A stretch of 64,000 nucleotides of DNA from assembly GCA_017506865.1 (NCBI GenBank), contig JAFCMP010000152.1, positions 62,001 through 126,000 of the forward strand. Reading direction: 5' to 3'. This document shows positions 8,153 through 62,958 of this stretch, piece after piece; the first letter of the stretch is position 1; every line of letters starts with the position of its first letter. The translations under genes were made by a program, and so were the position numbers. The notes below the pieces were generated by a model that saw only the letters and a list, made by a program, of their open reading frames with translations, had not been told where the DNA came from and made no database searches. The stretch is from Tribonema minus. Its lineage: Eukaryota; Sar; Xanthophyceae; Tribonematales; Tribonemataceae.

Positions 8153-10495
8153 CTGTACTGCTCGGCCCATAGCAGCTCGAAGCGGTGCAGCAGGTCCGCG
8201 AGGGCCGCCGGCGTAAATGGTTTGCTGCGGCGAAACGGCAGACCAGACGCGCAACATGCTTTAGAGTGCGCGTAGACGCTGCAGCGAGGGTTGCGATAAG
8301 GGTTGGGGGTAGGGCCTAACCCTAGCCGTAAAAGGTCAAACGCCGCTGACTGGCATGCTAGCCATTGGAACTCAGCACTACATGTTCAACCAAGGCAGCT
8401 CCATGCTGTCGCGCAATGTGCCCATTGCCGCGCCCGACAATGAAAGTGTCGCGCTCTCTCTGGTTTTGGGTCATGTGTGTAAACCACTGCAGGCGTTACC
8501 AAAGTATGCCAGTGGTCGTTGACAGTTAAGCAAGCGCATTGGTTGAAGACATCTTGCAGCTACGACATCTTTCCGCTAAAAAAGTGACACTAGAGGTGAA
8601 GACTGCACCGTCTTGGTTGCAGCTTGAAAGCTGAGAACTAAGGCTGGAGAGGGCGCCGTGATGCCGGCGAGGGTTGAACGCATTTGAGGTGAAAAGTCGG
8701 GCTTGCGCACACTTTTCTTAAGCGTCATCATGGAGCGTCACCAGGATAGGAGAGTCGCGCGTGTGGGCTAGCACATTGCACTGTACTCTGGTTACTTCAG
8801 CTTGTGGGGCGGACAACCTATTCCGCACCACGTGATATACTAAAAGCTTGCACACAAAAGTCATTTTGACTGATGGATACGGTGGTGTTGTTTGACTCGT
8901 GGCCAATTGCTGCAGCAGCGGCGACCACGGTTACTGGTGGAAGGCACTTGTGGCTAACCATCCCTTGTCACCTAGAGCTCTACGATCTTTTGATTCGTTT
9001 TCATTCATACAACGTACTTCAGAGGTATACTACAGTATGCTCGTGTTGAGCTCGTGCAACTGTACCAATGCATAGCACACGGGCAAACAGGACAGCCAGA
9101 AGGTGACTCACACACTTTGTCGTGAAGCCGGAGAGGAGTACGGCGAAGGAAGGCGAAGAAAGGTGAAGGAAGTGGTATCTGCAGCAAAGCCTGCGCGTGC
9201 CAGCCTGGGATTGCTGCAAGTGACCTCACTAAAAGTACGAGTGAACTCACTGATGAAAGTACAAGTGAACTCGCTGACCTGCGGTACTGGTCCATGCCTG
9301 CCTGCAGCCCATCCGCAATGTCGGTCTCGCTGGCGTTGGCGCTCACGCCGATGATGTGGCGGCGCCCGCGACGGTGCTGCGCCTCAAACTTGCGGTACGC
9401 GCGCGTGCACTCTATGCCGCTGAGCCGTGGCATGAGGAAGTCCTGCGGGGGGGAGGAGGGGGGGGGATATAGCGGCAAGGGGTTTAGGCACTGGACCTGA
9501 CACACAACTCATTTAGTGGATGACACGCAATTCATGTAGTGGGCTCGGCTCGGAAGGAGGCAGTGAGCAATGTGTGAGTGCTTCCCCTGGAGTGCAGTCG
9601 CGCACTTGCAATGAGGTCGGAAGGTACACCATATGGAGCACTCTCTCCGGTGCTAGCCTCAAACTTCAAGTCTGAGGCACTCGCACAAACGCGCACGCCG
9701 CAAGTTCCCACCACTCAACTCTAACCCTAATCAGCAGGTTCTGCTCATCCCATACACAGCAGTGTTTCGATTCACCCTCAGTCGCAAAAGTAACTGTCAT
9801 CCGAGAGTTCCTGCTGACATTGAATTACCAATCTACCGAACTTTAGTACAGACCTCGACGGCGTTCATGCTGAAGCACAACCATTTCATACTATCAGTAA
9901 TCTGTAGCTGCGGTTCCAATTTCTGCAGGATCTTGAAGTTGCAGCCGTCAGCCATCGCAGGTTCAACGTTGCCCAGTGTTTGCAGCAGTTGCTGTGCACC
10001 AGCAGCAGCAGCGCCAATAGCAGCAGCAGCAGCGGCAGCGGCAGCGGCAGCAGCCCCGCAGCAGTGGCAGCGGCAACAGCAGCGGCGGCAGCCTCGGTAG
10101 TGGCAGCAGCAGCTGCTGCAGCAGCGGCAGCGGTTGCGGCAGCGCCAGCGCCATCGCCACCGTCATCGCCTCAGCAGCGCAAGCGAAGGTGCTGCAGCGG
10201 CAGCAGCGGCAGCGGCAGCAGCAGCGGCAGCGGCAGCAGCGGCGCTCACCATGAACACGAGCGGCTGGCGCCCGCTGCGCAGCAGCTCCAGGCCCTCGCG
10301 GCCGTCGTGCGCCGTCACCGCGCGCCAGCCGTTGGCCTCCAGCAAGCGCGCCATGAGGCGGCGGATCACGCCGGAGTCGTCCACAACTACGGCCTCGCGC
10401 AGCAGCGGCACCGCCGCGGCGGCGGCGGCGGCGGCGGAGTGGTCTGCGGCGGCGCGCAGCGTGCGCAGCATCGGGCAGCAGGCACCTTTAGAGGG
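8153..10495 (-). CDS. Receiver (REC) domain exons
   Basis: Exon 10 (10495-10250) has AVVVDDSGVIRRLMARLLEA, with the acidic pair D626/D627, and ends QPLVFM. Exon 11 (9442-9279) starts DFLMPRLSGIECTR; D670 is the phosphoacceptor. It continues HIIGVSANASETD and GLQAGMDQY. Exon 12 (8224-8153) begins SKPFTPAALADLLHRFELLW, giving the conserved Lys725-Pro. All three REC signatures are therefore present and the domain looks active. A poly-Ala run (GCN) lies upstream of the REC start. Confidence 0.85.
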
Positions 10496-13400
10496 CTAAC
10501 TGAATTTCAATGTCGCTGCTGCTGAGCTCAGAGCCGAGGGTATGAAGCGGTTTCGCAGGCAGGCGGAGGTAAAGATGACAGCGACCGCTGTGGGCAGCAG
10601 TGGCGTTGCCGCTGCGGCGCCTGCGATTCCGGGGCTTTGTCGTGTGCGGCGGTGCCCCATCGGCGGCCCAGAAATAGTGACTGAACGCAATATGCATGGC
10701 AGCGCTCAGCACAGGACGCATGGCAGCGCTCAACCTTTGAAATAGGCAGCGCTCAGCGACCTTCACTAAGGCAGCAAAACAGTCGCATGACACAAGAGGC
10801 ATCAGCGCCTGTGCAGTGTCTCTTGCAGCGATTTGATGCACCAGTGTCCACGCTCCGCCTTACTTCACAGTGCGGGCACTGCATGCAACGGCGTTAATAG
10901 TATAATGTCCATCACTCCACCTCCAGCCGATGCCCAGAAACCTGCTGCAAACGTTGCTCATCTGCTCATTCACCTGCACTCCTGCGCACTCGTATGGTGG
11001 CATCGTCATCGGCGGCCAACGCGTCGGGGAGCGACGCCGCGGCTGAGTCCGCCGTAGACCCTGGGGGGCGGCTGCTGGCACGGCGGCGCAGCAGCGGCAG
11101 AGCAGGGCAGCAACGCAAGTTTCAGCACCTAGTCCATGCGTTCACATCGAATGCACCAGTGATTTCAATCTGCATGTCAACGCTCAGCAGTTGTGGCAGC
11201 GCCCAGGGGGCGGCGGCTGGCACGGCGGCGGCAGGGGGGGGTGGCAGAGTGCGGTAGCAGCGTGAGTTAGGGTTGGGGTTGGGGTTAGCGTGAGTTTCAG
11301 CGCTCGGCACACAAATTGACCCCCTGAATGCATCAGTGATCAGAATGGTGTGCGTTGGCGCACGAGCAGCACGTCAGCGCTCAGCAATTGCATGTCAACG
11401 CTCAGCAACGCAATCAGCCACTGAATGAATTGTGCACTCTGCGCGCCACACCACACCTAGGGCTAGGGTGAGGGCTAGGTTAGGGTAAGTATAGAGCCCT
11501 CGCGTGCTGCGACAGGGCTCGAGCGCTCCGGTTCAGCGACACATTCGGAGCGCTGATGCGCCTGCCGCCTCCTGAGCGCTGACACGTTGAGCGCCTCTCC
11601 GCTCGTGCCGCGACGCCGCAGACGCAGGAGCGACGCACAAGCACCCCCGGCCCACTCCATTCGTGCCCTCGTCGAGAGCTGCGCACGTCCTGCGCGCCGA
11701 CGGCTGCTTGCATCGTCGGCGGCGCCGCTCACATCGGTGCGACAGGGCACTTCTCACCAATTTTTATCCAACTGTCAGGACAGGGCACTTCCAACTGTGT
11801 CAAAAGGTATGCGCGCACTATCTGGTGTCAGACTTTTAAAATCAGATGGCCAGTATCCCTGCCTCACAACGCAGCATCCGCGCTTTTGCACGCGCGCGAC
11901 GGCGCGGCGCGAGCGTGAAAACCGCACTGCAGCGTGGCGCTCGCCGCGCACCTTGCCTGCTCGCCCAGAGCTGCGCGCGTCCCGCGCAGTGTCCGCGTGT
12001 CCGTGCGCGTGGCGGCGCGACACGAGTGTAAAAACCTCTCCGAAGCACCTCGCGCGCCGCGCTACGCGTCCGCGTGCTCGCGCGCGGCGGTGCGACACGA
12101 GAGCGCGCAAAACCGCTCTGAATCAAGGCCCGTACCATGCACCGCTGCACAAGCCGCCCTCACCCACGCCACACGCGCCCGCGCCCAGAGCTGCACACCT
12201 CCTGCAGGCCTGGGCGGCTACTGCGCGTCGGCGCCGCCATTCAACGCAGCGTCCACGCTTGCGCGTGCGTGCGGTGTTGCGGCACGCGTGAAACCGCCCT
12301 GCAACGCGCGAACCGTACCTGCTAGCCGCTGTGGAGCCGCGCCCCCGCGTGACGGACTCCGCCTCCAATGCCGCGCGGCTCGCGTCCGTCGCCAGGCTGT
12401 CCTCGCGCGCGCGCCGCAGCAGCGGGTCGTCGGCATTGGGCGCTGCCGCTGCGCCGCTGCCGCCGCCGCTGCCGTAGTCTGGGAACTCGAACCAGACGCA
12501 CGCGCCGCCGCTGGCGCCGCCGGGCCGCTGCGGGCGCGCGCTGAGGCCGCAGGTGCCGCCGATCGCGCGCACGTTGCTGGCCACTGTGAAGAGCCCTAGA
12601 CCTGCGAGTTGTCACCATGCACACATAGGGTCGTTGCTGTCAGTTGTGGTGCCGGTTCTGGGACGACAGTGTTTGAAAACCAAGAGTAGGGGAGGGGAAT
12701 CTGGACTTGTTTCGATGATGCGCCTGGCTGGGGTGAGTGGATTACCGCAACTAGGGCGGCGGGCTGCGGCAAAAAAGAGGCTGCATGTCATGCGTCTGGA
12801 TACGATGTTGACCGCCACACACTGCCCGCTGTGCACAGCGGGCAGAGACCTACACAGAACAGGCTGCACGCGGGTACCCTAACCCTAACCCTAACCCTAA
12901 CCCTAACCCTAACCCTAACCCTAACCCTAACCCTAATCCTAACCCTAATCCTAACCCTAACCCTAACCCTAATCCTAACCCCAACCCCAACCCTAAGGCA
13001 TGCTAAAAGCAGGGTGCAGCAGGTGGATGCCGGCGTTGCAGGACGTAGGGGTTAGGGTTCGGGTTACAGTTAGGGTTCCGGTTAGCGTCAGGCTAAGGTT
13101 AGGGGTCCGGTCAAGGTTGGCATCATGCGTCAGCTGACACGCCTATGTGGCGCAGGCAGTGGAAGCCCCTCGGGGCATGCGCACATAGGGTTAGGATTAG
13201 GGTTAGGGTTAGGGTAACCCTAACCCTAACCCTAATCCTAACCCGAAGCCCAACCCTAAGGCATGCTAAAAGCAGGGTGCAGCAGGTGGATGCCGGCATT
13301 GCAGGACGTAGGGGTTAGGGTTCGGGTTACAGTTAGGGTTCCGGTTAGCGTCAGGCTAAGGTTAGGGGTCCGGTCAAGGTTGGCATCATGCGTCAGCTGA

Positions 13401-17916: not shown

Positions 17917-17950
<34 letters not shown>

Positions 17951-21166: not shown

Positions 21167-21533
21167 CGGCGTCGCACAATGACGGGACGCCACGCAGCAT
21201 CACACTGCACACTAGCGTGCGCTGCGAGCATGTGTCACTGCTGTTGAAGTTGCCGTTGTCGGCCGTTACATCCGGGGGTGGGGGCAATAAGGGGGGGTTG
21301 GCCAGGAAAATATCGAGGGCAGAGCAAGGTTTTTGGTTTGGGGCTGCATGTGTTGAATTGCAAAGGTCAGTGCTAAAGTTCCCTTCAAATAGCACATGAT
21401 CTGCACAACTGGTGATGTCCACCGTCATTACGTTTGAAAGCCACCTCGGCGCTATCATGATGGTAAATGACGCAGAGAGTGCCGACGCTTGGTGTACGAT
21501 TTTGACATGGTGCTGGAGCTGCAGCTCTCGCAC

Positions 21534-21574
<41 letters not shown>

Positions 21575-21878: not shown

Positions 21879-22571
21879 ATGGAGGCTCCCAAGGCCCCTG
21901 CGAGCCTCTCCATAGCCACAGCCACCGAGCCCGCCCCCGGGACCAACTGGAGGGAATGCCCCAACTGCTATGAGACCTACGACTACTCGAGGGACGGCGA
22001 CAAGGATAGGCTGCCGAGACTGCTCAACTGCGGGCACCTCGTCTGCTCCTCCTGCGCCGGAGAGCTGTGGCTGGACTGCGCCCTGTGCTGCCCCACCTGC
22101 CTGGAGATGTCTGCCTGCAACAGCGCGGAGGACCTGCCAGTCCCCGTGGCGTCCCCCGTAGGGTCCCCCACCGCTGCCTCCCTCTCCCCCCACAGTGCGA
22201 GGGCGCCCGTAGACGAGGGGGAGAGCTCGGGCACCCCCTCCTCCTCCCCCGGAGGCTCGCAGCAGAACAAGCTGTCCAGCTTTCTGAGCGCAGGGGGGGG
22301 AGGCTCGGGATCCAGCCCCCGAGCCGCGGATGCCTGCAGCGGCAGCACGGTGGCGGGCGTGGACGCGGTGGCGGCGGCGGCGAGCGCCGCGCACTCGCGC
22401 CAGCTCAAGTGCATCGTGGAGCAGTGCGCGGCGCGGCGCACCGCGGGCAAGTACTTCTGCGAGCACCACGCGGAAAAGGGGCGGCGCGTGACGTGGAAGA
22501 CGACGGAGCGGCTCGTGCAGCGCTACGAGGGGGTCTCGCACTACCGCCTCAACACGGGCGGCGTGGAGCAG
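21879..22571 (+). CDS. RING-finger exon (first exon of the fusion model)
   Basis: It starts at ATG 21879 and encodes 231 residues. Near the N-terminus [12 protein letters not shown] ... [17 protein letters not shown] ... CCPTC gives the C3HC4 spacing of a RING finger, the zinc fold of many ubiquitin E3 ligases. A Ser/Pro/Gly-rich linker follows, then a second Cys/His cluster ([21 protein letters not shown]) that may be another zinc site. It ends GGCGTGGAGCAG|GTGAGC, phase 0, with no stop. If it is a separate gene, its 3' exons were not found. Confidence 0.75.
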
Positions 22572-25500
22572 GTGAGCGCGGCAGCGGCATGGCGCAGCCG
22601 ATGCGTGCGCGTATTTTGTTCGTTTTTTGCTCGTACAAGAACTTTGACCCTGACCAAGGGCGGCGGCGGCGGCGCGGCGAAGCAGCGCAGCTGATGCGCG
22701 TGCGTGTTTTGCTTGATCTGTGTTTGTGTGGCAGCAGTGCGGCTCAGTGTAGCTGATGCGTGTGCATGTTGCAGTTTTGCCCGATATGTGTTTGTGCAGC
22801 GGCAGCGCGGCGCAGCAGCGCAGCTAATGCGTGTGCATGTGTTGTCCGATTCCTTGTTCGTACTAGAACTTCAACCCTGGCGGCGGCGGCGCGGCTCAGC
22901 AGCGCAGCAGCGTAGCTGATGAACGTGCATGTTTTGACCGATCTGTGTTTGTGCGGCGGCGGCGCGGCGCAGCAGCGCAGCTAATGCACGTGCATATTTT
23001 GCCCGATTCGTGCTTGTGTACCAGAACTTGAAACCTACCCGCAAGAAAGCACGTGCGCGCCGCTCACGGACACTTGGGCGGTTGGCTCTGGCTATGTCGT
23101 GGTCGGGTGCACCTCGCATGTAGGTTGCAGTCAGTTACGGCATATGTCACTGCTCGAGGGCACAGGCGGGCGGGCTTTAACGCTGCGGCACCATGCAGGC
23201 ATCCCTTGCACTTGCCCTTGCATTTAGTCATTGCGCCGTGGTTTACTTGATCTCAGTCGCCTCGTGTAGTGGGCAGCGAGCTCTGCATCCGGCGTCAGTG
23301 AGCAGGCTGTCTGATGGATTGTGCGTTGCGAAACGGGTGGACTGCATGCGCATTTCCTCAAAATGCGTGTGCTTCTGGCCGTGCACCGTATGCTGCATGC
23401 GCGCCGCCGTTGAAGTTTTCACTTTTTAACAGGTTAGGGGGGGTGTTGAAGTTGCCAAAAGCTGATCGCTGATTGCGCTCACTTCTGAACAGCACGCGCG
23501 GAAGGAAGGCGATAGGTGAAGGGCGGCGCACCTGCAGCTTCTTCAGAAAAAACACCTTCCTCAAGATTTGCCATCGCCTCTTCGCCGTGCTCGCGCATGC
23601 ATCATCGCTCAGCAGCGTGAAACAGTCATCGCGAACAGCAGCGCGTGCGCGACTGCAGCACGCATGTACGCTGTGGGCAGCTCCCCTGAGTCCGCCTATC
23701 GGCACCTGCGCGCCGCCTGCGCTGTCTGCGCTCGCGGTTCATGCGGAACGCGCCAGGCCCTCGCTGAGCAATGAGCATCGCGCGTTCGATGCGCGCAGCG
23801 CGAGCGCTCGCCTTGCCAAGCCCCCCCTTCGTGCCCCCCCGCACACGCATTCGCGTCACGGGGTACGACCGCATCTGTCGCCTGAGGTGGCACGCAGAAA
23901 AACCGCAACGAGCGAGCCCGCGCCTTCATTGCCGAATGCTCATGAAGTAGGAGTTGGATCGTATGCTGGTGGTCACGCACTGCGCTCGGTGTCAACAGCC
24001 CCCCCCCCCCCCCCCTGCTCATCTGAGCCCTAACCCTCGTTACCGCAGGGCGGGTTGTCGGCAGCCCCCCCCCCCCTGCCGCTCCCTCTAACACAAACTT
24101 CAACCCTCATTGCTGCAAACTTTTACCCTCACTACCGCACGGCGGGCGCCTCGCGGAGGAGCTCGGCCGCGAGCCGTCGCTCGACGCGCTGCACCCCGAG
24201 TGCCCTCTACGACACACTTCAACTCTCACTACCGCAAACTTCAACCCTAATTAACGCAGGGCAGGCGCCTCGCGGAGGAGCTCGGCCCGGAGCCGTCGCT
24301 CGACACGCTGCACCCCGTCAAGCTCGCGGAAGTGTTCCGTGTGCAGGAAAAGGTCGCCATGGGCGGCGCCATGTGGCTCATCGCCCCTTCTGGCGCAAAC
24401 TTCAACTCTCAATACCGCTAACACAAACTTCAACCCTTATTGCCGCAGGGCGGGCGCCTCGCGGAGGAGCTGGGCCCCGAGCCCTCGCTCGACACGCTGC
24501 ACCCCGTGAAGCTCGCGGAGGCGTTCCGTGCGCAGGAGAAGGTCGCCATGGGCGGCGCCATGTGGCTCATCGACCAGGGCATCCGCGCGCTCGCGCGCGA
24601 GCCCAACGTGCTGCGCCTAGACGCCCCCGTGCGCGTCGTCGGGGACCTTCACGGCCAGTTCTTCGATCTGCTGAGCATGGTGGAGATGTGCGGGCTGCCG
24701 CGCGAGGGGGAGCCCGGGGGGTTCCTGTTCCTGGGGGACTACGTGGACAGGTGCGTGTGCGCGCGCGTGCTTAGATCAAGTTTAAGTTTTGTTGGGGGGG
24801 GGGGGGGCGACCTGCACGGCCAGTTCTTCGGCCTGCTGAGCATGGTCTAGATGTGCGGGCTGCCGCGTGAGGGGGAGCCCGGGGGGTTCCTGTTCCTGGG
24901 GGACTACGTGGACTGGTGCGCGCGCGCGCGCGTAGTTCAAGTTGAAGTAGAGGGTGGGGTGGGGGGGGGGAAGGTGGTTGTGGTGCTTGAGCGACGGCTG
25001 GCGTGCTGTGCGGGCATAAGTTGAAGTGCACACTGTGAGGTGCGCACTTGCGCCTATCTGTAAATTCTAGTAATGTTGAGGACAGAGGGTGCGTCACCGA
25101 GCAGCCTGACCTGGTATACCTCCATGCTAGAGTGTGGAGACAATGAGCCACTGCCATTGCGGGACAGTGAAGACAGTGTTGGATTCACCGACGTGCATCT
25201 ACCAGGTGTGATGAGACAGTGCTCAGCAGCAAATGGTGTGGCAGCGCTCGGCAAAGTGTTTACGCAACAGCAGTCGCTGCTGTCACGTCTACAGCGTCCG
25301 TCTGGAGCACCTGCGGGCTGTGAGTCGTAGCCTGTCTTGGCATGTATGTTTAATGCGTAATGGATTACGCTCAGAAGGGGGGGGGGGAGGGGTGCACAGA
25401 GCATCATCTGGGGAAGATCTCAATGGCGAGCTCACGTGCGCTGCGCATACCCTACAGACCCTGCACGCACATCCTCACTGACGGAGATCAACGCGCGCTG

Positions 25501-28500
25501 CTTGCAGCGAAGCACGTTGCGTGTCCCGCCAGCGCTAACTCTAACCCTAAACCGAACCCTACAACGCCGCAGCTCGACGCGCTCCGGCCTCACAGAGTCA
25601 CGCTGACAGACGCGTGCCCGCTCGCACCGTGTCACGCGTCATTCGCTAGAGCACTGTCGACGCTCACTGGGCGCGCCGCTGCTCGTGGGCGACAGGCGCA
25701 TGCCCTATCCTCAACCTTAACCTCAATTTCTAAGCCCTAGCCTCAATCCTAAGCCCCAACCTCAATCCTAAGCAAAGCACAAATCCACCCCCCCACCCCC
25801 CTTACCGTGCATCCGCTCCGACCCTTACCCTGATCCTGAGCCCCCCCCCCCCCCGTCTTTCTCTCCCCGCAGGGGCGCGTACTCGTGCGAGGTCATGCTG
25901 TACCTGCTCTCGCTCAAGCTGGCGTACCCCAAGCACGTGCACCTGCTGCGCGGCAACCACGAGTGCCGCTCGCTCACGGGTCACTTCGGCTTCAAGGCGG
26001 AGTGCAAGGCCAAGTATGGACTGCCGGTGTACTACAGGTGAGCGCTGCTGCTCATAGTTGAAGTATCGTGTTGAAGTTTACTGTTGCGGGGCTTCAAGGC
26101 GGAGTGCAAGGCCAAGTACGGCCTGCCGGTGTACTACAGGTGAACGCTGCTGACAGGTGAAGGAGTATGTTGTGCTGTAGATGAGCGCTGCTGCCGCGCG
26201 CAAAGAGCGCTGCTTACAGTTGAAGTAATATGTTGAAGTACCTTGTTGCTTCAAGGCGCAGTGCAAGGCCAAGTAAGGCCTGCCGGTGTACTACAGGTGG
26301 GCCTCACAGTTGAAGTAACATGTTGAAGTTTTTTGTTGCGGGGCTTCAAGGCGGAGTGCAAGGCCAAGTACGGCCTGCCGGTGTACTACAGGTGAGCGCT
26401 GCTCTCACAGTTGAAGTACCATGTCGAGGTTTATTATTGTGGGGCTTCAAGGCGGAGTGCAAGGCCAAGTACGGCCTGCCGGTATACTACAGGTGAGCTC
26501 ACAGTTGAAGTAACATGTTGAAGTTTATTGCCAGTGTACTACAGGTGAGCGCTGCTGCTGCGCAAGTGCTGCTCACAGTTGAAGTAGCATGTTGAAGTGC
26601 TGGAGGGGGGTAAAACTGTCCACGTGCAATTACAAGAGTGCCTACTGACAGTTGACGTCATGTGTTGCAGTTTCTTGTGCAGTAGGGTGTGAACCTGTAC
26701 AGCCGCAATCATGTGCGCAGCGTGCAGGCATATGCCAGGTGCGGGACGGGAGATGATGTCACGAGCAGTATCACCCCCTCGCAGTCCCTGGCGCACCGCA
26801 AGTCCGGTCGGTGCTGTGCCGAGCAGGTGCTGAGCACTGCAGCGTAAACCGCCAGGCAGCACGCATAATCGCCTCATGCGTGTCAGCATGCAGCAGGAGC
26901 AACAACAGGGTCAGGGACAGGATTAGGGTTAACCCTAACCCTAACCACCCCTGAGCTTGCCATCTCCGCGCAACAGCGGCAGCAGCGCTCAGGCGGCCCC
27001 GCGCCGTGTCAGTGCGCTTCGCGTGCGGCTGCCGCTGTGCGCCGTGGCGTCGAGCGACGCTTGTTGCTAGGCACAACCAGATACGTCTTTGGGTCAATGC
27101 AATTGCCTCCAAGCAGTGACTGCCAAATCAGAGCATTTTCCTTGCGAGCGCAGCGGCCTCGCACTTGAGCCGTGACCTCGCAGCCCCGCGGAAATGTAAC
27201 TGCTGACTTCGCCCTCCGCCGCGGGCGCCGCGCCGCTTCAAGCAGTCCCGTGCGTGTCTCTCGTGAGGCAGCCTCTTGAATGAGCCATGCATTTCCAACT
27301 TCAATTTCTACCCTAACCCTACTCTCGTGCCAGGGTTCCTGCGCCTGCTGCCTGTTGTGACCCGACGCGACGGGCGACATCGGGCGCTACCTGTGCCAAT
27401 ACAGCAGCCGGTCGTCTGTTCTCTGACGACTCTACATACCTACTTCAACCTATGCTCCCTACTTTCAAACCCTAAATCTAACCCTACATCCTCACCCCAG
27501 GTTCCTGCGCCTGTTCGAGGAGCTCCCGCTGTGCGCCGTCGTCAGGAGCGACGCCGGGCGTTACCTCTGCGCGCACGGCGGCCTCTCACCTGAGCCGTGA
27601 TGACACTACCTACTTCAATGTCAACTTCAACCCTAACCTTACCCCCTCATCTTTAACACCGCAGGTTCCTGCGCCTGTTTGAAGAGCTCCCGCTGTGCGC
27701 CGTCGTCACGAGCGACATCGGCCGCTACCTCTGCTGATGCCCGCAGCCTGTCACCTGTGCCACGAACACTCCCCTATTTCTAACTTCAACCCTAACCGTA
27801 ACGCCTGATCCTCGCCCCAGGTTCCTGCGCCTGTTTGAGGAGCTCCCGCTGTGCGCCGTCGTCACGAGCGACGTCGGCCGCTACCTCTGCGCGCACGGCG
27901 GCCTCTCGCCCGACCTCGCCTCCATCGAGGAAGTCGACGCGCTGCAGCGGCGCGGCGAACCCCCCATGAGCGGCCCCCTGTGCGACCTGCTGTGGGCGGA
28001 CCCCGCAGACGATCCGGGGTGCTGTCCGCCGCCGGGGCGCATGACGACGGCGGAGCTCGGGGCGCTGCTCGGCGCGCAATTCGCGCCGAACCGGCTGCGC
28101 GGCTGCAGGTGAGGGCCATGCTTGGGGGGTTTTGTGTGTGTGAATAGGGGGGGGGGGGGGGTAGGTATCACATACTGCTGTGGGCGGACCCCGCGGACGA
28201 TCCCGGCTGCTGTCCGCCGCCGGGGCGCGTGTCGACGGCGGAGCTGGGGGCGCTGCTCGGCGCGCAATTTGCGCCGAATCGGCTGCGCGGCTGCAGGTGA
28301 GTTGAGGCGACCTTGTGGGGGGGGGGTGTATGCTGCGCAGCTGCAGGTGAGCGAGAGCAGCGATGTGGAAGTTGGGGGGTATGTAGGTATCACCTAATAC
28401 TGTGGGCAGACCCTGCGGACGACCCCGGCTGCTGTCCTCCGCCAAGACGGCGGAGCTCGGGGCGCTGCTCGGCGCGCAGTTTGCGCCAAACCGGCTGCGC

Positions 28501-31500
28501 GGCTGCAGGTGAGAGGGTGCGACGATGCTCGGGGTGAGTGTGTATGTTGGGGGGTATGTAGGTGCGGCGCGTGCTCTGGGGGGGTCGTGGGTCCCGTCTT
28601 GCATGCGCGTGCATCACAGCAGACACATTGCTCGCTGCTGCCGCAACAACGTACTGACTCTGCCCCCCCCCCCCCCTGCCCTTCCCCCCGCATGCCCCCC
28701 CCCCCCAACGCGCAGCGTGAGCTTCGGCTACGCGGCGGCGGTGGAGTTCCTGGAGCGCAACGACCTGCTGTGCCTCATCCGCGCGCACGCCGTGCAGGAG
28801 GGCGGCTACTACCGCCACTTCGAGGACGCGCACCAGCGCCACCACCAGCAGTGCTCCACAGCCGAGGCGGGCGGCGCAGCTGACGCGGCAGCAGCAGCGG
28901 AAGGGGAGGAGGCGGCGGCGGCGGCGCCGCCGCTGTCGGAGGCGGTGCTGCGGTCGCGCTCGCTGCCCGCAGTGATCACCGTGTTCAGCGCGCCCAACTA
29001 CTGCGGGCGCTACGGCAACAAGTGAGTGCCGCCGCGCGCGCTAACCGCCGCCGCCGCATCGCGTGCGTCCGTCGCACGATTTCAAGCGGAACGCTAACAT
29101 CGAACGCCTCTGTCCGGCAGCGCGCGAACGTGCCACCTCACATGCGTCGAAGCTGAGACTCCAAATCTCCACGCGCTAACCCCGGTTCCGCCCCCTCCCC
29201 CCTGGCGCACATGCAGCATCTCAGCACCTCGCGCATTGAAGCCGATACATAGCTCCACCGTCGCTAACGCCAGCTCCGCTGCCCCCCCCCCCCCCCCCCC
29301 CCCCCCCTTTGCCAGGGGCGCGATCCTCACCCTCGAGCGCGGCGCCGTGGAGCCCGTGGTGCGCCAGTATGATCGCATGCCAAACGTTGACATCGAACGC
29401 CTCTGTCGGCAGCGCGCAAAAACGCGCCACCTTGCACGTGTAGAAGCCAAGGTGCAATACCTCCGCATGCCCTAACACCCCCTTTCCCCCCCCCCCTTCC
29501 CCCTCCCCCTTGTCGCGCGCCAGGGGCGCGATCCTAACCCTCGAGCGCGGCGCCGTCGAACCCGCCGTTCGCCAGTACGACTGCGTCCCGTCCCCCGCGC
29601 CAAAGGCCGGCGCCGACGCCGCCGGCTCCGACATCCTCCTCACCGCGCTCATCGAGGCGTGCCCCTACATGCCGTCCACGTTCCGCGACTTTGTGCTCAC
29701 GGCCGTGCGCATGGGGCCCGCGCAGCAGCCGCTCGGCGCCAAGAGCGAGGCGGCGGCGGCGGCGGCGGAGGCGTGCCACGCGAACCGCGGCGCCGTCGCG
29801 GAGCGCCGCCGCGCGCTGCAGGAGCGCGTCGCGCGCGCGGAGACGCGCGGCGCCGCCGCCGCCGCGGGCACGTTCCCCGCGGCCGTGGGTGAGTCGCCGC
29901 TTGCGCTTCGCTGTTGCTTTTTTGAAAATTGAAGTTGCGGAGCGCTGCTGCCGCGCGCTGCAGGAGCGCGTCGCGCGCGCGGAGACGCGCGGCGCTTCCG
30001 CCGCGGGCACGTTTCCCGCGGCCGTGGGTGAGTCGTTGCTTGAACTGTGCCGCTCGAACGTGAAAATTCGCAAGCATTGTTGCGCGCCGCAGGAGCGTGT
30101 CGCGCACGCGGAGACGCGCAGCGGGCACGTTCCCCGCGGCCGTGGGTGAGTCGCCGCTTGCGCTTGCTTTTGAAGTTGCCGTTTGAGGTGGTGGAGCGCT
30201 GCCGTGCGCTGCAGGAGCGCGTCTCACACTCGGAAAAAGCGCAGTAGCGAAGCCACAGGTACATACCCCTGCGGCAGTGTCAGATGAGGCGCCGCTGGCG
30301 CTGGTGGAGTGCCAGCGCTGCCGCCTCAAGGTTGTGCTTGCGCCGAGAACGCTTTGGGCAAGCGGCTGCTGCGGAGGAGTGGAAAGAAACGTGATTTGCG
30401 GCGACCTCTGGAAGCACGGCATTGGAAGAATTGCTTGCCAGGCGACACGCGCTCACCTGCTGCACGCTGCTGCTGCGCGTTCCGCATCGCAGGCGCCGCC
30501 GGCGCGGGCGACGGCAGCGGCGCCATGACGACGCACGCGCTGTATCAGACCATGGCTGCGAACGACAGGATCAATGAGAGGCACCCCGAGGCGCTGTTCG
30601 AGGGCGCAGAGCCAAAGAAGCTCAACCGTAATGGCAGCATGGTGAGTCACACTTGAAGTTCTGCCGTATGGTGAGTCACACTTGTCGCTTTGCTGTGCAA
30701 GGGCGTGGAGCCCAAGAAGCTCAACCGCAACGGCAGCATGGTGACTCACACTTGAAGTGTTGATGTTTGAAGTGTCGCTGTTTGAGGGCGCGGAGCCCAC
30801 GAAGCACAACCGAAACGGCGACATGGCGGGTCGCACTTGAAGTGTCGCTGCCGTGCCGGCTGCACAGCGTGTGAGAGCGTGGTGCGGTGCATGATAGGCC
30901 CCGCAACTGACATGTCGCTGGCATGAACAGGGCATGGAAAATTGATGGTTGAACGGCGCGCGATAGGCGGCACTTTTAGGGCCAGGGTTTGGGTCAGCGT
31001 TCACTGGGCTGCAATGAGGCACGCCGCCGCTGCCCAGCAAATCTGACAACAGGTGCGACGATTGAATCAACAGATGCGGGGGCGAGTTGCGCGGCAGGCC
31101 GCGCCAACTGCCGTTTGCTGCAAACCATCACATGGACGACGCCAGAGTGATGTCTCGCAGTGGAACGATGCCGGCAATGCTCTACGGGCGCTGCGGCGTC
31201 GTGCGTGGAGCATTGCCAGCATCCTTTCACCGGCATTGTGATTTTGCTGACTCCTAAGTAGGTACGCACCTGCCTCTGTACGTGCTGCTGGCGCTCAAGC
31301 ACACCCATCGTCAGGAGCAAGCTGACCGATGCCGCATCTACACACCATCTCCCCCCCCCCACCCCCCACCCCCCCAACAGCACGAGCTCCAGCGCAAGCT
31401 CAGCAACGTGCAGGCCATCACGCGGCGCTTCGAGCAGCAGCAGGAGGAGGGCGGCAGCAGCGGCGCCAAGCCCGACGCGACGCCCGCGAGCCCCGCCACT

Positions 31501-34500
31501 GCCACCGCTGCGGAGCGCCCCCCCGCGTCACGTTCGGCGCTGCGACGTCATCGCCAGGCTCGCGGGGGCCGGGGCGCCCAGCGCACTCTGTCCCCGGACG
31601 AGCGACGCGCATGTTCTTCACCAGCGGCGGCATCCCCGGCGGCGGCGGCGGCGGCAGCGGCGGCAGCGGCAGCGGCAGCACCGCCGCGCCGCCGGCGGCG
31701 CCGCCGTCGCCGACGGACGAGCCGGCGCAGTCCAAGGAGGAGAAGGGGGGGTGCGCGGAGGTGCCGCCGACGCCGCCGCTGTCGCCGCTGCCGCAGCCGC
31801 CGGAGGAGGTGGCGGCGGCGGCGGCGGCGGCGGCAGCGGCGCCGCCGCCGCCCGCGCAGGAGTCCACCGCCGCTGCGGCAGCTGTGGCTGTGGCGGCAGC
31901 GCTGACGCTGCAGCAGCTGGAGTGCAGCGACGAGGGCGCGGTGGCGGCGGCGGCGGCGGCGGTGCTGCGCGGCGGGGCGTCCTCCGAGGCGGTGGCAGCG
32001 GGCGGCGGCGGCGGCGGCGGCGCACGCGGCCACTCGCGCACGTACACGCCGCTCGAGGCGTGCAGTCACAACAAGAAGTACGTGGCGAGCATGCAGAAGA
32101 GCAACAACGCGGCCAAGGCGACGCGCTCTGCGCTGTTCAGCGTGCTGCCGCCGGCGCTGTCGCCGACGATGAGCGCCGCCGCCGCCGCCGCCGCGAGCGA
32201 GAACCGCAAGTCGCTCGCGCACAACTGGCGGCAGCGGCAGGCGGGCGCGGAGGCGGCGCTGTCATCGTCGCAGGTGCGCGTCGCTGCTTGGCGCATGCAG
32301 CCGTGTTCTGAATGTATGTGTTTGAAATTAGCAGTTCCGCAGGCGCCACTGATTGGCGCATGCAGCAGGGGTCTGAACGCACGTGCTTCAATTCAGCAGT
32401 TGTGCATTCGCTTTGGGACGTGTCCATAGAATGGAGCCGATCGCTGCGCGCAACTGGCGGCGCACACAACGTGCATGCGCGGCAGCGGCGCTAGCATGGA
32501 TGCCTGCGCAGGCGCCTTCGCGCGTCTGCTGCGCGATGCACTGCAAGAGCACTCAGCAGCCAGAGTTGATTTCTTCGAGTCAAGGACGTGCGGCAGTGCT
32601 TCACGTAGCTTGTCGCTCACATGAGCAGCAGCGCTGTGCCTGCGCCAGCGACGGCAAGAAGCCTGCTGAAGGCTATGAAGACTCAGAGTCAGAGTCATTC
32701 ATTGCGTGACTCTGAGTATCTTGAGGCGTCAAAGCCCTCTGCAATGGCCCTTACACAAGGTGTTGCAAACAGGACCATGGCGCCTCTCTCTGACGTATCT
32801 TGGTCCCCTCAATTCCCGCGTCAATGCTCCCCTTGCACGTGACATGGCAATCAGCCCATTTTCCCTCTGCACTGCCCCCCCTGCACGTAATACCGCAATG
32901 AGCTCAGTTCCCCCTGCAACGCCCCCCCCCTACACGTAGCACCGCAATGAACTCATTTCGCTCTGCAACGCCCCCCCCTGAACGTAGTACCGCAATGCGC
33001 TCAGTCCCCTCTTTAACGCCCCCCCGTGAACGTAATACCGCAATGAGCTCAATTCCCCCTGCAACGCCCCCCCTACACGTAGCACCGCAATGAACTCATT
33101 TCGCTCTGCAACGCCCCCCCCTGAACGTAGTACCGCAATGCGCTCAGTCCCCTCTCTAACGCCCCCTCCACATACACGTTATATTGCCAAACAGGACGGT
33201 GGGACGCCGGATGCGCAGCAGCACGAGCGCCACCACTCCGATGGCACGCCTCAGCAGCAGCAGGAGCAGCCCGTTTCTCTCTGCACCCCCCCCCCCTGCA
33301 TGTCATACCGCAATCCCCTCAATTCCCTCTCTAACGCCCCCCCCTACACACACTTGATATTGCCAAACAGGACGATGGGACGCCGGACGCGCAGCAGCAC
33401 GAGCGCCGCCACTCGGATGGCACGCCTCAGCAGCAGTCTGACGGGGGTGACGTCAGCAACAGCGGCCGCGGCGGCACGCGCCCCGAGAGGGAGGAGGACC
33501 TGTTCTCAGAGGTACGTGCATGTATGTGTGATAATGCGGTCATGGGGGTGCGGAGCACTGTGCATGCGGCGTATGTTGGTGTTTCTATGTACTCAGTAGG
33601 AAGTTCATATGCATACTAAAATGTACGTCATGGGTGCTGACCTGTATGCATGCAAAGTATGTAAAGTATATGTGCGTGTTCACAGTGGACCGTACCATAT
33701 GTACGTGCTCACAGACGGATGCTGGCATATGCATGTTGCAGATGTGTGCGTGTATGTTCGCAAGCGTCATCAGGCGTAAACATGTACGCATACGCTTTCT
33801 CACAGGCATCTACATGTGAAGCATGATTATGATGTACCTTGAAAGTGCCCAAGCAATGACAAGATGGGGCTTCGCACGCCAATAACGAACCACGCGGAGT
33901 CCCGTCATTCAACCTGATCACCATGTGTTCGATTGGCAGCCCGCGGCACCTGCTTCGACATCACAGTGCTGAACTTGAACAAAGCATGTTGAACTTCAAG
34001 AATGACTCTGCCTCTCTGTGTAGCATGGCGGTACCATGCCCTGCGCCCACTCTGCCGCTTCCGTTCCGGCATTGAGCACTTTGCTTCCGCCCACCATCGC
34101 GGTGCAATGAGCAAAGTCACTTGTTTGACGCAAGAAAATCTGATATTAATGCAATCCAAAAAGCCAAACGAACTTCAGGCTGTGATGTTTGTTTCCTGTG
34201 ATTTTAGATTTAGTCCAGCTCAAAGCCTCCAAGAAGTGGTGACAAACCAGAGAGCATCTGCGACTTACCAATGCTGAGCGTCAACCCTCTCTTGCGCCGC
34301 GCTGCCACTGCCGCCGCCGCAGAGGGAGATGCAGGGCCTGAAACTGCTGTTTGCGCTGATGGACTACAACGACACGCAGTACATCGACGCCGACGCGCTG
34401 CAGCAGTACGCCGGCGAGCACGACGACTTTGCGCAGGTGACGCTCCTTCTTGAAGTGTGAAGTTCAAACTGTTTCACAGGGGCACTACTTGCGTTGCTGT

Positions 34501-58700: not shown

Positions 58701-61700
58701 GCGGCAGCAGCGACACGCACATGGTCAGCGGAGGTCGACAATCGGGCACGATTGTAGCAGCGGCACCAAAAGCAGCCATGATAACGCTGCACAGAGTCCT
58801 CAAAATTGGAGGCAGAAGGGGCAGCGGGCAGCAGCAGCGCTCAGGTGTGTTGTGCCGGCGTCTGATTGGTCTGTACAACGGTGCGTGCACCGTCCAGCAG
58901 CGCGCGCGCCACTGACGGCTCTTGAAGCGTTTGGGAAGAAATTGAACCTCAACCCTAATCCTAACCCTGGCCCTAACCTACTCTAACCCTAAACCTAGCC
59001 CTAACGCCTGCGCGCATCCAGATATGCACGGCGCGGACCACGCGGCTGCGGCTAGGCGAGAGATAGGCTTATCGTAGTCATGATGGTAAGGCTGGACCGT
59101 GCCTGCGCTGCAGCCGTGCGCGCCATGAACCTGGGCACGGTGCGCACTAGCCCTGACCACAGTTCTGTTGGTAAAAGTGCCACGCTGCGCACATCGACTA
59201 TCAAAAGCACGCACTGCAGCAGCAACGGCGGCGGCGGCGAGCTTGTTGAGGCGCGTACACGTGCGCCATGAACTTGGGCATGCTGTGCGTTTGCTTTAAC
59301 CCTAAGGCCAGGCGTGCTCTGACCCAGGATGAGAGCCCACTCTGACCTTCAGTCAGCCAGGCAAAACGCAGGCCACGTTGTGCACATCAACGTCATGAGC
59401 ACTCACCGAGGCAGCGGCGGCGGCGCGCTTGTCGAGCCGCGCCAGCGCCGCGTCCGCGCGCGCCATGAACTTGGGCACATTGTGCGCGCCTAGCGCGCGC
59501 TGCGTCGCAAACTCGCTGAAGGAGCGCTTGATCATGTCCTCCACCGACATGTCCTCCACGCGCAGCAGGTTGAGGATCATGCTGTACTTCAAGCGGAACT
59601 GTGACTCGAGCTTCGTCGCGGAGCCCGTGAGCATAGCGCGCAGCGCCGGCAGCGGCGGCGGCTCGCTCCACGCGGTGATGAGGACCGTGCCCACCTGTTG
59701 AAGTTGGAGTCAGGAGCACACAGCGCATAGTTGAGGTCGAGGGTGGCGTCACGGCACATGCAGCACGTGAGCATTGCGGGCAGCGCCGGCAGCGGCGGCA
59801 GCTTGCTCCACGCGGTGATGAGGACCGTGCCCACCTGTTGAAGGTGAGGTCGAGGCTGGGGGCACACGCAGCAAGCGCAATCAGTGCGCACGCTGAATGG
59901 GGAACAGGCCCTGGGTGTGGAGCTTTAGCAAGGAGACTTGTGATGACAAACGACAATCAGCAGCGTCGATTGGCATGGGCGAACGCAACTGCGGCAGAGC
60001 CCTGGCTGGTAGGCAACACGAGAATTAGTTGGGCCTGCCCTGCCTGCATTGCCCCTAGCGTATGCCATGCCAAACTTGTCGGGCTTTAAACCTCTTGCAC
60101 TTTCAGGCAGCATCGCTCCTTCAAAAGCAGAAGCGCTGCCGGCGATGGAAGTTCAACAAGGATGTGAAGTCATGAACCCTCCTTGTCGAGGCCGCGGCGC
60201 CTGAGGTTAGCACCGCTGCCTAAACAAGAGTGTCAAGTTGTTACAGAAATCAGAGTTCAATCAGGGCGTGACGTCATGAAACGCGCCTCGTCAGAAATTG
60301 AAGTTCAACACGGACTTGGAATTGTTAACTTCACTTTGTCGAGGCCGCGGCGCCCCGCGCGCCCCGCCATCTGCGTGTACTCCCCAGGCAGGAGGTCGCG
60401 GAACTCGCGGCCGTCGTGCTTGCGCAGGCCGTTGAATTGAAATCGAAGTCTGATCAGACCCTAAATGAAATTGAAGTTCAATCAGGACCGGAAATTGTCC
60501 AAAACTTCACCTTGTCTAGGCCGTGGCGCCCCGCGCGCCCCGCCATCTGCGTGTCCTCGCTGAATTAGAATTGAAGAATCCATTGTTGAAGCTCAAAATC
60601 AGGACATGAAATAAGAACCTCACCTTGTCGAGGCCGCGGCGCCCCGCGCGCCCCGCCATCTGCGTGTACTCCCCGGGCAGCAGGTCGCGGAACTCGCGGC
60701 CGTCGTGCTTGCGCAGGCCGTTGAATTGAAATCGAAGTCTGATCAGGCCCTAAATGAAACTGAAGTTCAATCAGGACCAGAAATTGTTCAAAACTTCACC
60801 TTGTCTAGGCCGCGGCGCCCCGCACGCCCCGCCATCTGCGTGTACTCCCCGGGCAGCAGGTCGCGGAACTCGCGGCCGTCGTGCTTGCGCAGGCCGTTGA
60901 AGACGACCGTGCGCGCGGGCATGTTGACGCCCATGGCGAACGTCTCCGTCGCAAAGAGGACCTTGACAATGCCGCGCGAGAAGAGGATCTCCACCGTCTC
61001 CTTGAGGATGGGCAGCAGACCTCCGTGGTGGACGCCCTGCGCAAAAATCGGGGGGGGGGGGGGGGGGGGGGGGGGGGAATAGGTAGGTATAGGTGTGTGG
61101 GGGGGTAGGTATTGGTAATGCTATGCGGGGTATGTACCGGGGTCGCGAGTTGACGATGCCTCGCGAGAAGAGGATCTCCACCGTCTCCTTGAGGATGAGC
61201 AGCAGGCCGCCGTGGTGGACGCCCTGCAAGGAGCGTCAAGGCGGTACGCATGTATAGGTATTACCACACGGGGTATGCACCGGTGGCGAGTTGAAGATGC
61301 CGCGTGAAAGCACGTCTTCTTTTGGCAATTTGAGGATGGGCAGCAGGCCGCCGTGGTGACGCCCTGTGTGGAGGCGTCGAAGGGGTATGTATGGCTATTT
61401 ATTACTCTGCGGGGTATGCACCGGGTGGCGAGTCGGAGATGATGCGTGAGAAGAGCATCTCCACCGCCTCCCTGAGGATGGGAAGGAGGCCGCCGTGCCG
61501 AACGCCCTGCACGGAGGCGTCAAGGGGGCATGTAGGAATGGGTACTACCGTGCAAGCGGCGGTGTCACTCACCACGCCATGCCACAGCATCGCGTGCAAG
61601 CGCAGCGCTCGCGCCGGCGCGGCGTTGGCGGGGCCGAGGCGCCGCTAACCCTTTGAACCAAGCCGTTTGGAGGTTTGAACAACTTGAACTTATGTGGATT

Positions 61701-62958
61701 TGGTCGACTTCAACTAGTGTGGACTCACCACGTCGCGCCGCAGCATCTCGTGCACGCGCAGCACCTGCGGCAGCGCAACGTCGGCGGGGCCGAGGCGCCG
61801 CTAACCACTTCGAACCAAGCCTACTGGAGGTCTGGTCAACTAACTAGCGCTAACCCTCCAAGCCACCCCTCTGGAAGGCCGGTCAACTTCAACTAGTATG
61901 GACTCACCACGCCACGCCGCAGCATCTCGTGCACGCGCAGCACCTGCGGCAGCGCGGCGTCGGCGGGGTCGAGGCGCCGCGCCGCCGCCGCGCACGCCGC
62001 GTGCGCAGACGCCTTCTCCGCGGCGTCCGTGAAGTCAGCGCTGCTCAGCGCGTCGGCGCCCTCCTCGCACTTCTTCTTGCTGAACGAGAAGACGACGGCG
62101 GGGGTCAGCCCCTCCTTCCGCAGCCGCGCCACGAGCGCCTGCCACTGGGACTTGGACCCCTGGGTGTCGCGGCCGCCGGGCCGGGAGCTGCCGCCGCCGC
62201 CGCCGCCGCGACCGCCGCCGCGCGCGCCGCCGCCGCTGCCGCCGCGGCCGGTGGCGTTGCCTGCTTGCCGACCGCCTTGCTGAGAGGGTGCTTTCTTGTC
62301 CTGGAGGCGGCGTGGCGAGGCGAGCGTCGGCGATGCGTGAGCTTCGGCGCAGCAGCGCTCAGGCGCTGTGAACAGTCGTGGATGATGTTTTACGGATGAT
62401 GTTATACGGTCAAGCTGCCATCGGCGGAACCGTGCAGATGACGGCAGGCGTGACGGGCGTATAGCGCGCACCGCAAATTCAGCGATGGCGCAGCGTCGCC
62501 GGCGCCTCAGCCGCCCTTCCAGGCACCGCGCTTCATCAAACAGCGCCCGAACACCTGGTCATCAAACCTGCAAGAAAGAAGATTTTTTTTTTTGCCGTTC
62601 TGACGTGTGCATGCGCAACCGCTCGGACAAGTCACAGCGTGTGGTCGTAATGTACCTCCTTCGCCGCCAGCTTGGCTACCGCGGCGGCCTCACTCCCCAT
62701 TCCAGGCAGCCCTATCATCAGACAGCGCCCGCAACCCACTCATTTACGTTGAAAATGAAACATTTGGAGGCATGTGTCGCGGCGTGCGCGCGCGCGTACA
62801 AACGCTCAGCGACGTCGCATACGGAGTGACGAACGGAGTGGCAAACGCACGATGAACGCGACAAACGCACGGAGTGACAGACGCACCTCCTTTGCCGCCA
62901 GCTTAGCGGCCGCTACAGCGTGGCCCTCCGCCAGGAAGTTCTTGCGGTGGTCCATGAC
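50216..62958 (-). CDS. SKI2: SKI2 (SKIV2L-type) RNA helicase, C-terminal 846 residues
   Basis: ATP-driven 3'-5' RNA helicase that feeds RNA to the cytosolic exosome in the Ski complex. Exons, minus strand, 5' to 3': 62958-62887, 62300-61908, 61036-60800, 59694-59407, 58616-58516, 57660-57252, 56529-56425, 55526-55446, 54841-54723, 52713-52466, 51535-51309, 50587-50415, 50303-50216 (stop). The sum is 2541 nt = 847 codons, and all junctions agree in phase. It is SKI2 rather than MTR4 because of the stretch [32 protein letters not shown] between motifs IV and V, the RGG linker, and the absence of an MTR4 arch. The N-terminal region and motifs I-III are not seen in the window, so the gene probably continues past the right edge. 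Intron 5 has a GC donor. Confidence 0.92.
50725..51190 (-). repeat. Four donor-side copies of SKI2 exon 11
   Basis: GCAGCAGCGCTCACCTCCGC AAACGGCACGCC-type segments at about 50735, 50850, 50998 and 51148 repeat the end of exon 51535-51309 (VPFAE|GTGAGCGCTGCTGC). Unit about 115-150 bp. In between are CGCGC and a C-run. Confidence 0.93.
52815..53705 (-). repeat. Four acceptor-side copies of SKI2 exon 10
   Basis: GTGCGCGATCTTGGCGCGGA GGCGCGCGCGCCTGCG, the exon start with its acceptor CAG, recurs at about 52828-52880, 53040-53095, 53195-53252 and 53650-53690. Spacers carry TTAGGGTTAGGG and GTAGGTANGTACG. One copy also includes the more internal GAAGTCGGGGAACAGCTGGA. Confidence 0.95.
53700..54515. 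repeat. Telomere-like rich SKI2 intron
   Basis: TTAGGG or AACCCTAA patches at about 53706, 53935-53960, 54232-54262, 54328-54365 and 54501-54512, plus a G-run at 54006-54026. No exon was seen. Confidence 0.8.
54723..59694 (-). CDS. SKI2: SKI2 central exons (post-helicase and insertion region)
   Basis: Exon 59694-59407 has [20 protein letters not shown] and [12 protein letters not shown], conserved in SKI2/MTR4. Exon 58616-58516 ([20 protein letters not shown]) ends in a GC donor, CATTCAG|GCAAGC. Exon 57660-57252 starts with the beta-barrel segment [19 protein letters not shown] and contains [11 protein letters not shown]. Exon 56529-56425 ([20 protein letters not shown]), exon 55526-55446 ([20 protein letters not shown]) and exon 54841-54723 complete the region, which corresponds to the SKI2 insertion domain. 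Confidence 0.85.
54920..55085 (-). repeat. Acceptor-side copy of SKI2 exon 9
   Basis: CTTAGCTCCGATACTTCAAAG TCCGTGATCTGCAGCG repeats the start of the exon at 54841 (GAT..ATGTCCGTGATCTGCGGCG), about 120 bp upstream. The following GGCAGTGAA..GCTCAGG.GTCCCTAA is also duplicated. Confidence 0.85.
57780..57828 (-). repeat. Acceptor-side copy of SKI2 exon 6
   Basis: GGCCGGGCCCCAAGAGCGACT TGCCGCCGCGCGCCGTTCTG repeats the exon start at 57660 with its CAG, 165 bp upstream. Confidence 0.93.
59095..59295 (-). repeat. Two donor-side copies of SKI2 exon 4
   Basis: GCGCGCCATGAACCTGGGCAC (about 59117) and GTGCGCCATGAACTTGGGCAT (about 59260, with GGCGGCGGCGAGCTTGTTGAG) repeat the region near the end of exon 59694-59407. 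Confidence 0.85.
59755..59845 (-). repeat. Acceptor-side copy of SKI2 exon 4
   Basis: GCGGGCAGCGCCGGCAGCGGC through GGACCGTGCCCACCTGTTGAA is an almost exact copy of the exon start and acceptor, 140 bp upstream. Confidence 0.95.
60180..60728 (-). repeat. Four donor-side copies of the SKI2 motif V/VI exon
   Basis: CACCTTGTCGAGGCCGCGGCG, then CCCCGCCATCTGCGTGTACTC and GTCGTGCTTGCGCAGGCCGTT, recur at about 60625-60720, 60508-60558 (short), 60333-60436 and about 60180-60205 (short), below the true exon end at 60800. Unit about 120-170 bp. Spacers carry ATTGAAGTTCAATCAGG. Confidence 0.95.
60800..62958 (-). CDS. SKI2: SKI2 helicase core, second RecA-like domain
   Basis: Exon 62958-62887 ([20 protein letters not shown]) precedes an RGG/Gly-rich linker in exon 62300-61908, which also holds motif IV ([14 protein letters not shown]). 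Exon 61036-60800 holds [20 protein letters not shown], motif V ([15 protein letters not shown]) and motif VI ([10 protein letters not shown]) with its arginine finger. The sequence is intact. Each of these exons has edge copies in the flanking introns. Confidence 0.93.
61130..61512 (-). repeat. Three acceptor-side copies of the SKI2 motif V/VI exon
   Basis: GAGAAGAGGATCTCCACCGTC through GCCGTGGTGGACGCCCTGC recurs at about 61161-61230, 61305-61368 and 61448-61510. They lie upstream (sense) of the true exon at 61036, each with its CTGCA(G/C) and GTATGTA spacer. Confidence 0.95.
61570..61805 (-). repeat. Two donor-side copies of the SKI2 RGG exon's 3' end
   Basis: ACTCACCACGTCGCGCCGCAG CATCTCGTGCACGCGCAGCA (about 61725-61800) and ACTCACCACGCCATGCCACAG CATCGCGTGCAAGCGCAGC (about 61567-61640) repeat the end [17 protein letters not shown]. 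Confidence 0.93.
62655..62690 (-). repeat. Donor-side partial copy of the first visible SKI2 exon
   Basis: ACCTCCTTCGCCGCCAGCTTG GCTACCGCGGC repeats the end of exon 62958-62887 (ACCTCCTTTGCCGCCAGCTTA). Confidence 0.88.

Follow-up and report, generated by a model that had tools for sequence, protein, structure and literature searches.

The question raised by this locus is how introns come to hold degenerate copies of the edges of their own exons, splice sites included, and whether such copying prefers the exon-intron boundary. The window, that is, the whole stretch of 64,000 nucleotides that was analysed, is C152:62001-126000 in the 158-Mb genome (554 contigs) of the yellow-green alga Tribonema minus. 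On its plus strand, a RING-like stretch, a calcineurin-like phosphatase and an EF-hand-like end look like one gene (21879-36071); the RING-like stretch scores under the Pfam cut-offs, and the EF-hand-like end gets 17.8 bits with EF-hand_7 against a cut-off of 30 and gives no family if scanned alone. The minus strand carries an MTR4/SKI2-like helicase (Helicase_C above the cut-off, an MTR4-like stalk below it) and a histidine kinase (HATPase_c above the cut-off, a receiver-like stretch just under it). The NCBI model P0001 spans only part of the phosphatase gene. A similar order of RING-like stretch and phosphatase was judged by eye in the paralogue L019 on contig C520, and the RING and phosphatase domains are combined in some metagenomic homologues. 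The intron between GDYVDR and GAYSCEV (24750-25873) is present in the window gene and absent from L019.

In nine loci, 67 exon edges were fixed by homology, reading frame and splice consensus, with edges lacking a clear splice site excluded before counting. The terminal 50 bp of the exon were searched in at most 1 kb of the adjacent intron, and a copy had to score above 27, the value at the 99th percentile for comparisons with unrelated and reverse-complement sequence; the controls were the reverse complement and the exon 50-100 bp and 100-150 bp inside the edge. The window supplies 24 edges to the main test (19 from the phosphatase gene, 5 from the SKI2-like gene), and the kinase adds 4 to make 28. 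Excluded in the window were the RING-exon end, the start of the first SKI2-like exon and a possible upstream exon near 62889; elsewhere, the C520 acceptor after 4311, the last junction of C88 and, in the replicate described below, two edges of L044 and two of L045. Repeats are present at the excluded RING-exon end (22575-23036), and a copy is visible at the possible upstream exon.

Comparison of the window with itself gives 131 repeat pairs; 112 of these, of which 102 are direct and 10 inverted, have their copies within 3 kb of each other. The adjacent intron contains a copy of the exon edge at 16 of the 24 phosphatase and SKI2-like edges, or at 15 with the score above 34; the weakest positive edge, the acceptor at 28716, scores 28. 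The reverse complement gives 0/24, the exon 50-100 bp inside 11/24 and the exon 100-150 bp inside 3/24. Donor copies consist of the exon end and the intron start, acceptor copies of the intron end and the exon start, and there are 1 to about 7 copies per edge; the minimum spacing per family is 57-280 bp for 31 edge families and 65-476 bp for the five families touching no edge. The initial annotation had described the same make-up and the same range of copy number, and had stated that each array copies its own exon; we agree on all three, the arrays being direct local duplications that span exon-intron boundaries (Table 1). Its assignment of such copies to three genes is borne out for the phosphatase and SKI2-like genes and not for the kinase, where both edges of the receiver exon and both edges of the HATPase exon tested negative (0/4), and its count of more than 20 places is not reached among the 28 window edges tested. 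A repeat pair of 78% identity occurs at 19672-20040 in the kinase gene, in a stretch that is GAF-like by eye only.

Table 1. Working exons and copies of their edges in the window (positions counted from the first base of the window)
Feature	Position	Strand	Basis or remark
Live phosphatase exon (GDxHG..GDYVDR)	24449..24750	+	P0001 maps from first residue to donor
Acceptor-side copies (2) of 24449 exon start; one with AG, one with AC	24116..24309	+	Repeats, edge copies
Donor-side copy of exon end at 24750, with GT	24806..24969	+	87% over 168 bp
Live exon (GAYSCEV..YYR)	25873..26037	+	P0001
Donor-side array: five copies of exon end at 26037, each with GT	26090..26598	+	Repeats, edge copies
Acceptor-side array: three copies (intron end, AG, start of 27821 exon)	27297..27714	+	Repeats, edge copies
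Live phosphatase exon	27821..28108	+	P0001
Donor-side array: copies of exon end at 28108	28175..28549	+	Repeats, edge copies
Live exon (VSFGY..GRYGN), edges without convincing copies	28716..29021	+	P0001; scores 28 and 16 against threshold 27
Acceptor-side copy of 29524 exon start	29284..29365	+	Repeats, edge copies
Live exon (GAILTLERG..)	29524..29888	+	Open frame continuing the conserved protein, splice consensus
Donor-side copies (2) of exon end at 29888; a third, weaker, further on, GT lost	29981..30172	+	Repeats, edge copies
Donor-side copies (2) of exon end at 30641; second with GC for GT	30692..30854	+	Repeats, edge copies
Acceptor-side copy of 33371 exon start	33156..33244	+	Repeats, edge copies
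Acceptor-side array: seven degenerate copies (intron end, AG, last-exon start)	34990..35751	+	Repeats, edge copies
Last phosphatase-gene exon, EF-hand-like	35880..36071	+	EF-hand_7 below cut-off
Donor-side copies (2) of SKI2-like exon end at 61908	61567..61776	-	Repeats, edge copies
Acceptor-side copies (3) of start of exon at 61036	61174..61510	-	Repeats, edge copies
Live SKI2-like exon	60800..61036	-	Helicase_C over cut-off; reading frame
Donor-side copies (3) of exon end at 60800	60299..60673	-	Repeats, edge copies
Acceptor-side copy of start of exon at 59694	59785..59855	-	Repeats, edge copies
Live SKI2-like exon (VGTVLITAW..)	59407..59694	-	MTR4-like stalk below cut-off; reading frame
Donor-side copy of exon end at 59407	59179..59255	-	Repeats, edge copies

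The copying of exon edges is real and extends past the window. The nine loci together have copies at 36/67 edges, compared with 2/67 for the reverse complement, 16/67 for the exon 50-100 bp inside and 3/67 for 100-150 bp. By set, the positive edges are 16/24 in the window, 4/9 in the paralogues, 14/26 in three kinesin genes and 2/8 in two loci on C246 and C157, which were picked for repeated matches in their tables and were therefore kept out of the kinesin count. Kinesin genes were picked by exon number, and for the first three the repeats had already been seen before the edges were fixed. The replicate consists of three more kinesin loci with 20 edges fixed before repeats were computed, although overlapping query ranges in the match table had been noticed before that point for C180 and C101a; copies were found at 5/20 edges, with controls of 0/20 (reverse complement), 2/20 (exon 50-100 bp) and 0/20 (exon 100-150 bp). 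Pooling the six kinesins gives 19/46 positive edges (17 at a score above 34), the reverse complement giving 2/46 (0 above 34) and the exon controls 4/46 and 0/46, respectively. The genes vary: C516 has 7/8, C141 6/11, C180 3/8, C101b 2/6, C522 1/7 and C101a 0/6.

As far as the sequence allows us to judge, the outermost copy is the working exon. The annotated proteins P0001, P0002 and P0037 pass unbroken through the outermost copy at 8/8 copied edges that they cover; P0001 covers six edges of the phosphatase exons and follows the exons at each of them. Identity and codon analyses took the 67 copies scoring above 50 from a listing of 86 copies above 34. Differences between the live exon and its copies at codon positions 1, 2 and 3 amount to 63/1030, 52/1029 and 127/1017 (0.061, 0.051 and 0.125), and in arrays with at least two copies, 13 of the 14 sites at which the copies share a base that differs from the live exon are third codon positions; the outer exon has thus changed under protein constraint. 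Changes confined to a single copy are spread over the three positions (29, 25 and 40). A frameshifting gap is present in 14/67 copies and an in-frame stop, within the stretch tested, in 1/67.

The exon parts of the copies differ from the live exon by 0-24%, about 8% on average. Graded decay, another point of the initial annotation, was examined in arrays with three to five ranked copies (those with fewer than three were left out): exon identity drops with distance from the live exon in 10/11 arrays at a mean rho of -0.41, so the claim stands as a weak tendency. Compared with each other, the copies agree better over their exon parts than over their intron parts (identity 0.913 vs 0.840; exon higher in 12/13 arrays), and they differ at codon positions 1, 2 and 3 in 89/723, 50/724 and 91/708 sites, from pairs that are not independent. 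Plain drift predicts neither the higher identity of exon parts nor the deficit at second positions; possible causes of both are gene conversion, a faster rate of change in introns and alignment effects. At one paralogous edge, the C520 copy shares its junction with the window copies, yet at three sites diagnostic of the paralogue the copies of each gene agree with the exon of that gene; this could be read as conversion from the live exon, and we take it as a hint.

Where the copies cover the splice site, GT is intact in 31/37 donor copies and AG in 36/40 acceptor copies. Per base, donor copies retain 63/68 of the dinucleotide, 259/274 of the neighbouring eight exon bases and 193/210 of the next intron bases; the corresponding values for acceptor copies are 58/62, 223/244 and, just upstream in the intron, 183/217. 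These values give no clear indication that the copied sites are under selection, but the retention of the acceptor AG leaves room for some. Among copies that align across the site with no gap, 14/25 donors (-3 to +6) and 12/26 acceptors (-6 to +1) are identical to the live site. Splicing appears to occur only at the outermost copy, and the splicing machinery may thus be faced with near-perfect decoys. The suggestion that the copies serve as alternative splice sites is not supported so far, considering that the three annotated proteins use the outermost copy at all eight edges and that the dinucleotides are kept about as well as the neighbouring exon bases.

Profiling intronic 50-mers according to how far they lie from the edge could not tell edge families and interior families apart, since the interior is itself occupied by the copies, and family counts were used instead. 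Clustering of the repeats in 29 introns (median 811 bp) produced 36 families in 24 introns, and 31 of these families touch an exon edge (16 at the donor, 15 at the acceptor), whereas uniform placement predicts 11.5. Edge families should stay visible longer because the live exon decays less, hence the restriction to families of at least 85% identity: all 20 of them, the youngest families of the sample, are at edges, against 5.9 expected, or 8.7 with doubled detection odds. Below 85%, 11/16 families are at edges, against 5.6, or 7.7 with doubled odds (p 0.059). In the replicate loci, for which no expectation was computed, 4/7 families touch an edge and 3/7 do not; on our reading, all 3 families of at least 85% identity do so. 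The comparison proposed initially, of copies next to exon edges with those elsewhere in introns, comes out for the edges in our main sample, with the three off-edge families of the replicate on the other side.

Array sequence beyond one unit occupies 8,013 of the 27,965 bp of the 29 introns, or about 29% with all families counted, in accordance with the claim that the introns were lengthened in this way. Inverted repeats are near zero around introns in the profile of those studied. Neither G-runs nor C-runs near the edge tell copied edges from uncopied ones (p 0.33 and 0.18), and TTGAAGT near the donor is marginal (8/20 edges with copies vs 1/15 without; p 0.048, uncorrected).

Some further features of the sequence are recorded here in their own right. 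TTGAAGT occurs 30 times in the 28 kb of the 29 introns against 1.8 expected, with 29 occurrences in 5' halves, numbers that the array copies inflate; on a per-intron count, 10 introns carry it in the 5' half alone and 1 carries it in both halves, with no intron having it in the 3' half alone. Its complement ACTTCAA is enriched as well (26 vs 1.0 expected). G-runs lie mostly in the 5' halves of the studied introns and C-runs mostly in the 3' halves, so that the intron ends could pair. At 8840-9005 there is a dispersed repeat of about 165 bp, matched over most of its length at 39 other places with 91-98% identity among 40 candidates scored; a first look gave 2,493 candidates genome-wide. Interstitial telomere-like TTAGGG/CCCTAA repeats, enriched in the studied introns, lie at 12876-13500, 26907-26946 and 45296-45328 and include a 263-bp unit tandemly duplicated at 98%, and a 22-bp minisatellite (14056-14481) lies just upstream of the kinase HATPase exon. 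Outside the window, L021-L031 on contigs C223, C144, C278, C90 and C179 are kinase and helicase loci that are 91-99% identical, almost repeat-free and apparently intronless, possibly endogenous viral segments. We considered such contig pairs as alleles and rejected the idea; they look like repeated segments and not like alleles of the array-bearing genes.

We believe that these arrays probably result from recurrent short tandem duplications across the exon-intron boundary with the outermost splice sites retained. Short direct duplications with a minimum spacing of 57-280 bp would span the boundary repeatedly, and the cell would continue to pair the outermost sites, 5' and 3', on either side of the real exon, by exon definition or in a similar way. 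Because this pairing would persist, a duplication would be tolerated, its inner copy would become intron at once, and the intron would grow; graded decay would follow if most new copies are added beside the live edge. Direct tandem copies can come from slippage, from unequal exchange or from break repair alike. The likeliest molecular source, we propose, would be fill-in repair of staggered breaks or paired nicks; CST-guided fill-in by Pol alpha-primase gives tandem duplications at breaks with 3' overhangs, according to the part of PMC8355091 considered here. A signature test recovered 14 junctions only, the arrays being too degenerate to be read as fresh events; a CTTCAAG-like breakpoint motif at unit starts was promising at two edges and was dropped as not general in these junctions. 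Several points speak against this explanation, namely, the two patterns between copies that plain drift does not predict, the hint of conversion at the paralogous edge, the off-edge families (3/7) and the one gene without copies in the replicate, as well as the in-frame stop in only 1/67 copies and the acceptor AG being kept better than the upstream intron. It is tempting to go further and regard the boundaries as a mutational hot spot: the DNA of the live boundary would be broken or re-copied again and again by some process linked to transcription or splicing, new copies would be added beside the exon, and the introns would lengthen at both ends, with decoys that are locally near-identical being ignored by the spliceosome; we hold this idea tentatively and with some doubt.

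Tandem duplication could instead be uniform, with the edge excess reflecting survival or detection only since purely intronic pairs decay twice as fast. The families lying off the edges (5/36 in the main sample, 3/7 in the replicate) fit this explanation, as does the weak excess among families below 85% identity with doubled odds (11/16 vs 7.7); we nevertheless regard it as rather unlikely, considering that all 20 families of at least 85% identity are at edges against 8.7 even with doubled odds, and that the same holds for 3/3 in the replicate. A much less probable possibility is that selection maintains the copies for a role in splicing control, whether as decoys, as back-up sites or as alternative exon ends. 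Most copies do retain GT or AG, their exon parts are more alike than their intron parts, and the acceptor AG (58/62) exceeds the intron bases just upstream (183/217); however, the dinucleotides (63/68 and 58/62) are kept like the neighbouring exon bases (259/274 and 223/244), 14/67 copies contain frameshifting gaps, and none is contained in the three annotated proteins.

We give little credence to the introns being introners or some other kind of transposable element bearing splice sites. Among the 29 introns, the only matches were those linking the paralogous pair of phosphatase introns and an inverted one of 32 bp inside a single gene; the introns within 24400-29700, the paralogue aside, match the genome only in the telomere-like stretch and C-runs, in a search that skips very common words; and each array carries its own exon, against which can be set the enrichment of TTGAAGT in 5' halves and the existence of the dispersed 165-bp repeat. 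The introner mechanism had also been dismissed in the initial annotation, and both comparisons agree with it. Equally improbable, in our opinion, is the Rogers and Hellsten model, in which an intron is created by duplication of an AGGT-bearing exon segment: it likewise involves tandem duplication with splice sites, and one intron of the window gene is absent from the paralogue, but the model builds the intron itself from the duplicated segment, whereas here the introns already possess a donor and an acceptor, beside which lie copies of the upstream and of the downstream exon, respectively. As for an assembly artefact, arrays are hard to assemble; such an origin is nonetheless scarcely credible for copies whose divergence from the live exon ranges over 0-24% and averages about 8%, next to exons with the codon-position pattern reported above, in arrays on ten contigs.

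Recurrent boundary duplication resembles several known systems in part. Tandem exon duplication with alternative exons also repeats exon sequence within a gene; the Tribonema arrays differ in that only exon edges are copied and the copies drift. Intron gain by tandem duplication was reportedly described by Hellsten in 2011. The classical form of this model derives a new intron from an AGGT-bearing exon segment, and the potato RdRp case duplicated an intron-exon structure, in the portions of PMC4974935 (both points) and PMC3443670 (the model) used here. Common to that process and ours are the duplication of gene segments with splice signals and a coding sequence that can stay unchanged; unlike it, the Tribonema introns are lengthened and not created, the copies stay on the side of their own exon, the arrays occur at many edges of several genes, and the families sit at the donor (16) or the acceptor (15) of introns having their own sites. 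The small tandem duplications at repaired breaks, as presented in the same part of PMC8355091, which cites rice insertions (Vaughn and Bennetzen 2014), are short, direct and local like ours, which have the direct orientation and the short unit; the class below 100 bp distinguished there covers 10/31 of our edge families, the other 21/31 being spaced at 100 bp or more. The concentration at exon edges is a further difference, and the origin of the Tribonema copies in break repair is a proposal. Introners, in the portion of PMC9860276 considered, change introns on a large scale, as happens here; a unit shared between introns of unrelated genes, the same sequence at many sites, was not found in Tribonema. 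In the open literature, which leaves most subscription papers uncovered, we found no account of introns made of exon-edge copies.

If true, the observation would mean that an alga has a common route of intron lengthening with a preference for boundaries beyond that of uniform duplication. It would also provide naturally occurring pairs in which a used splice site is matched by one that is apparently unused, which may bear on the question of what, beyond the local sequence, makes a splice site real.
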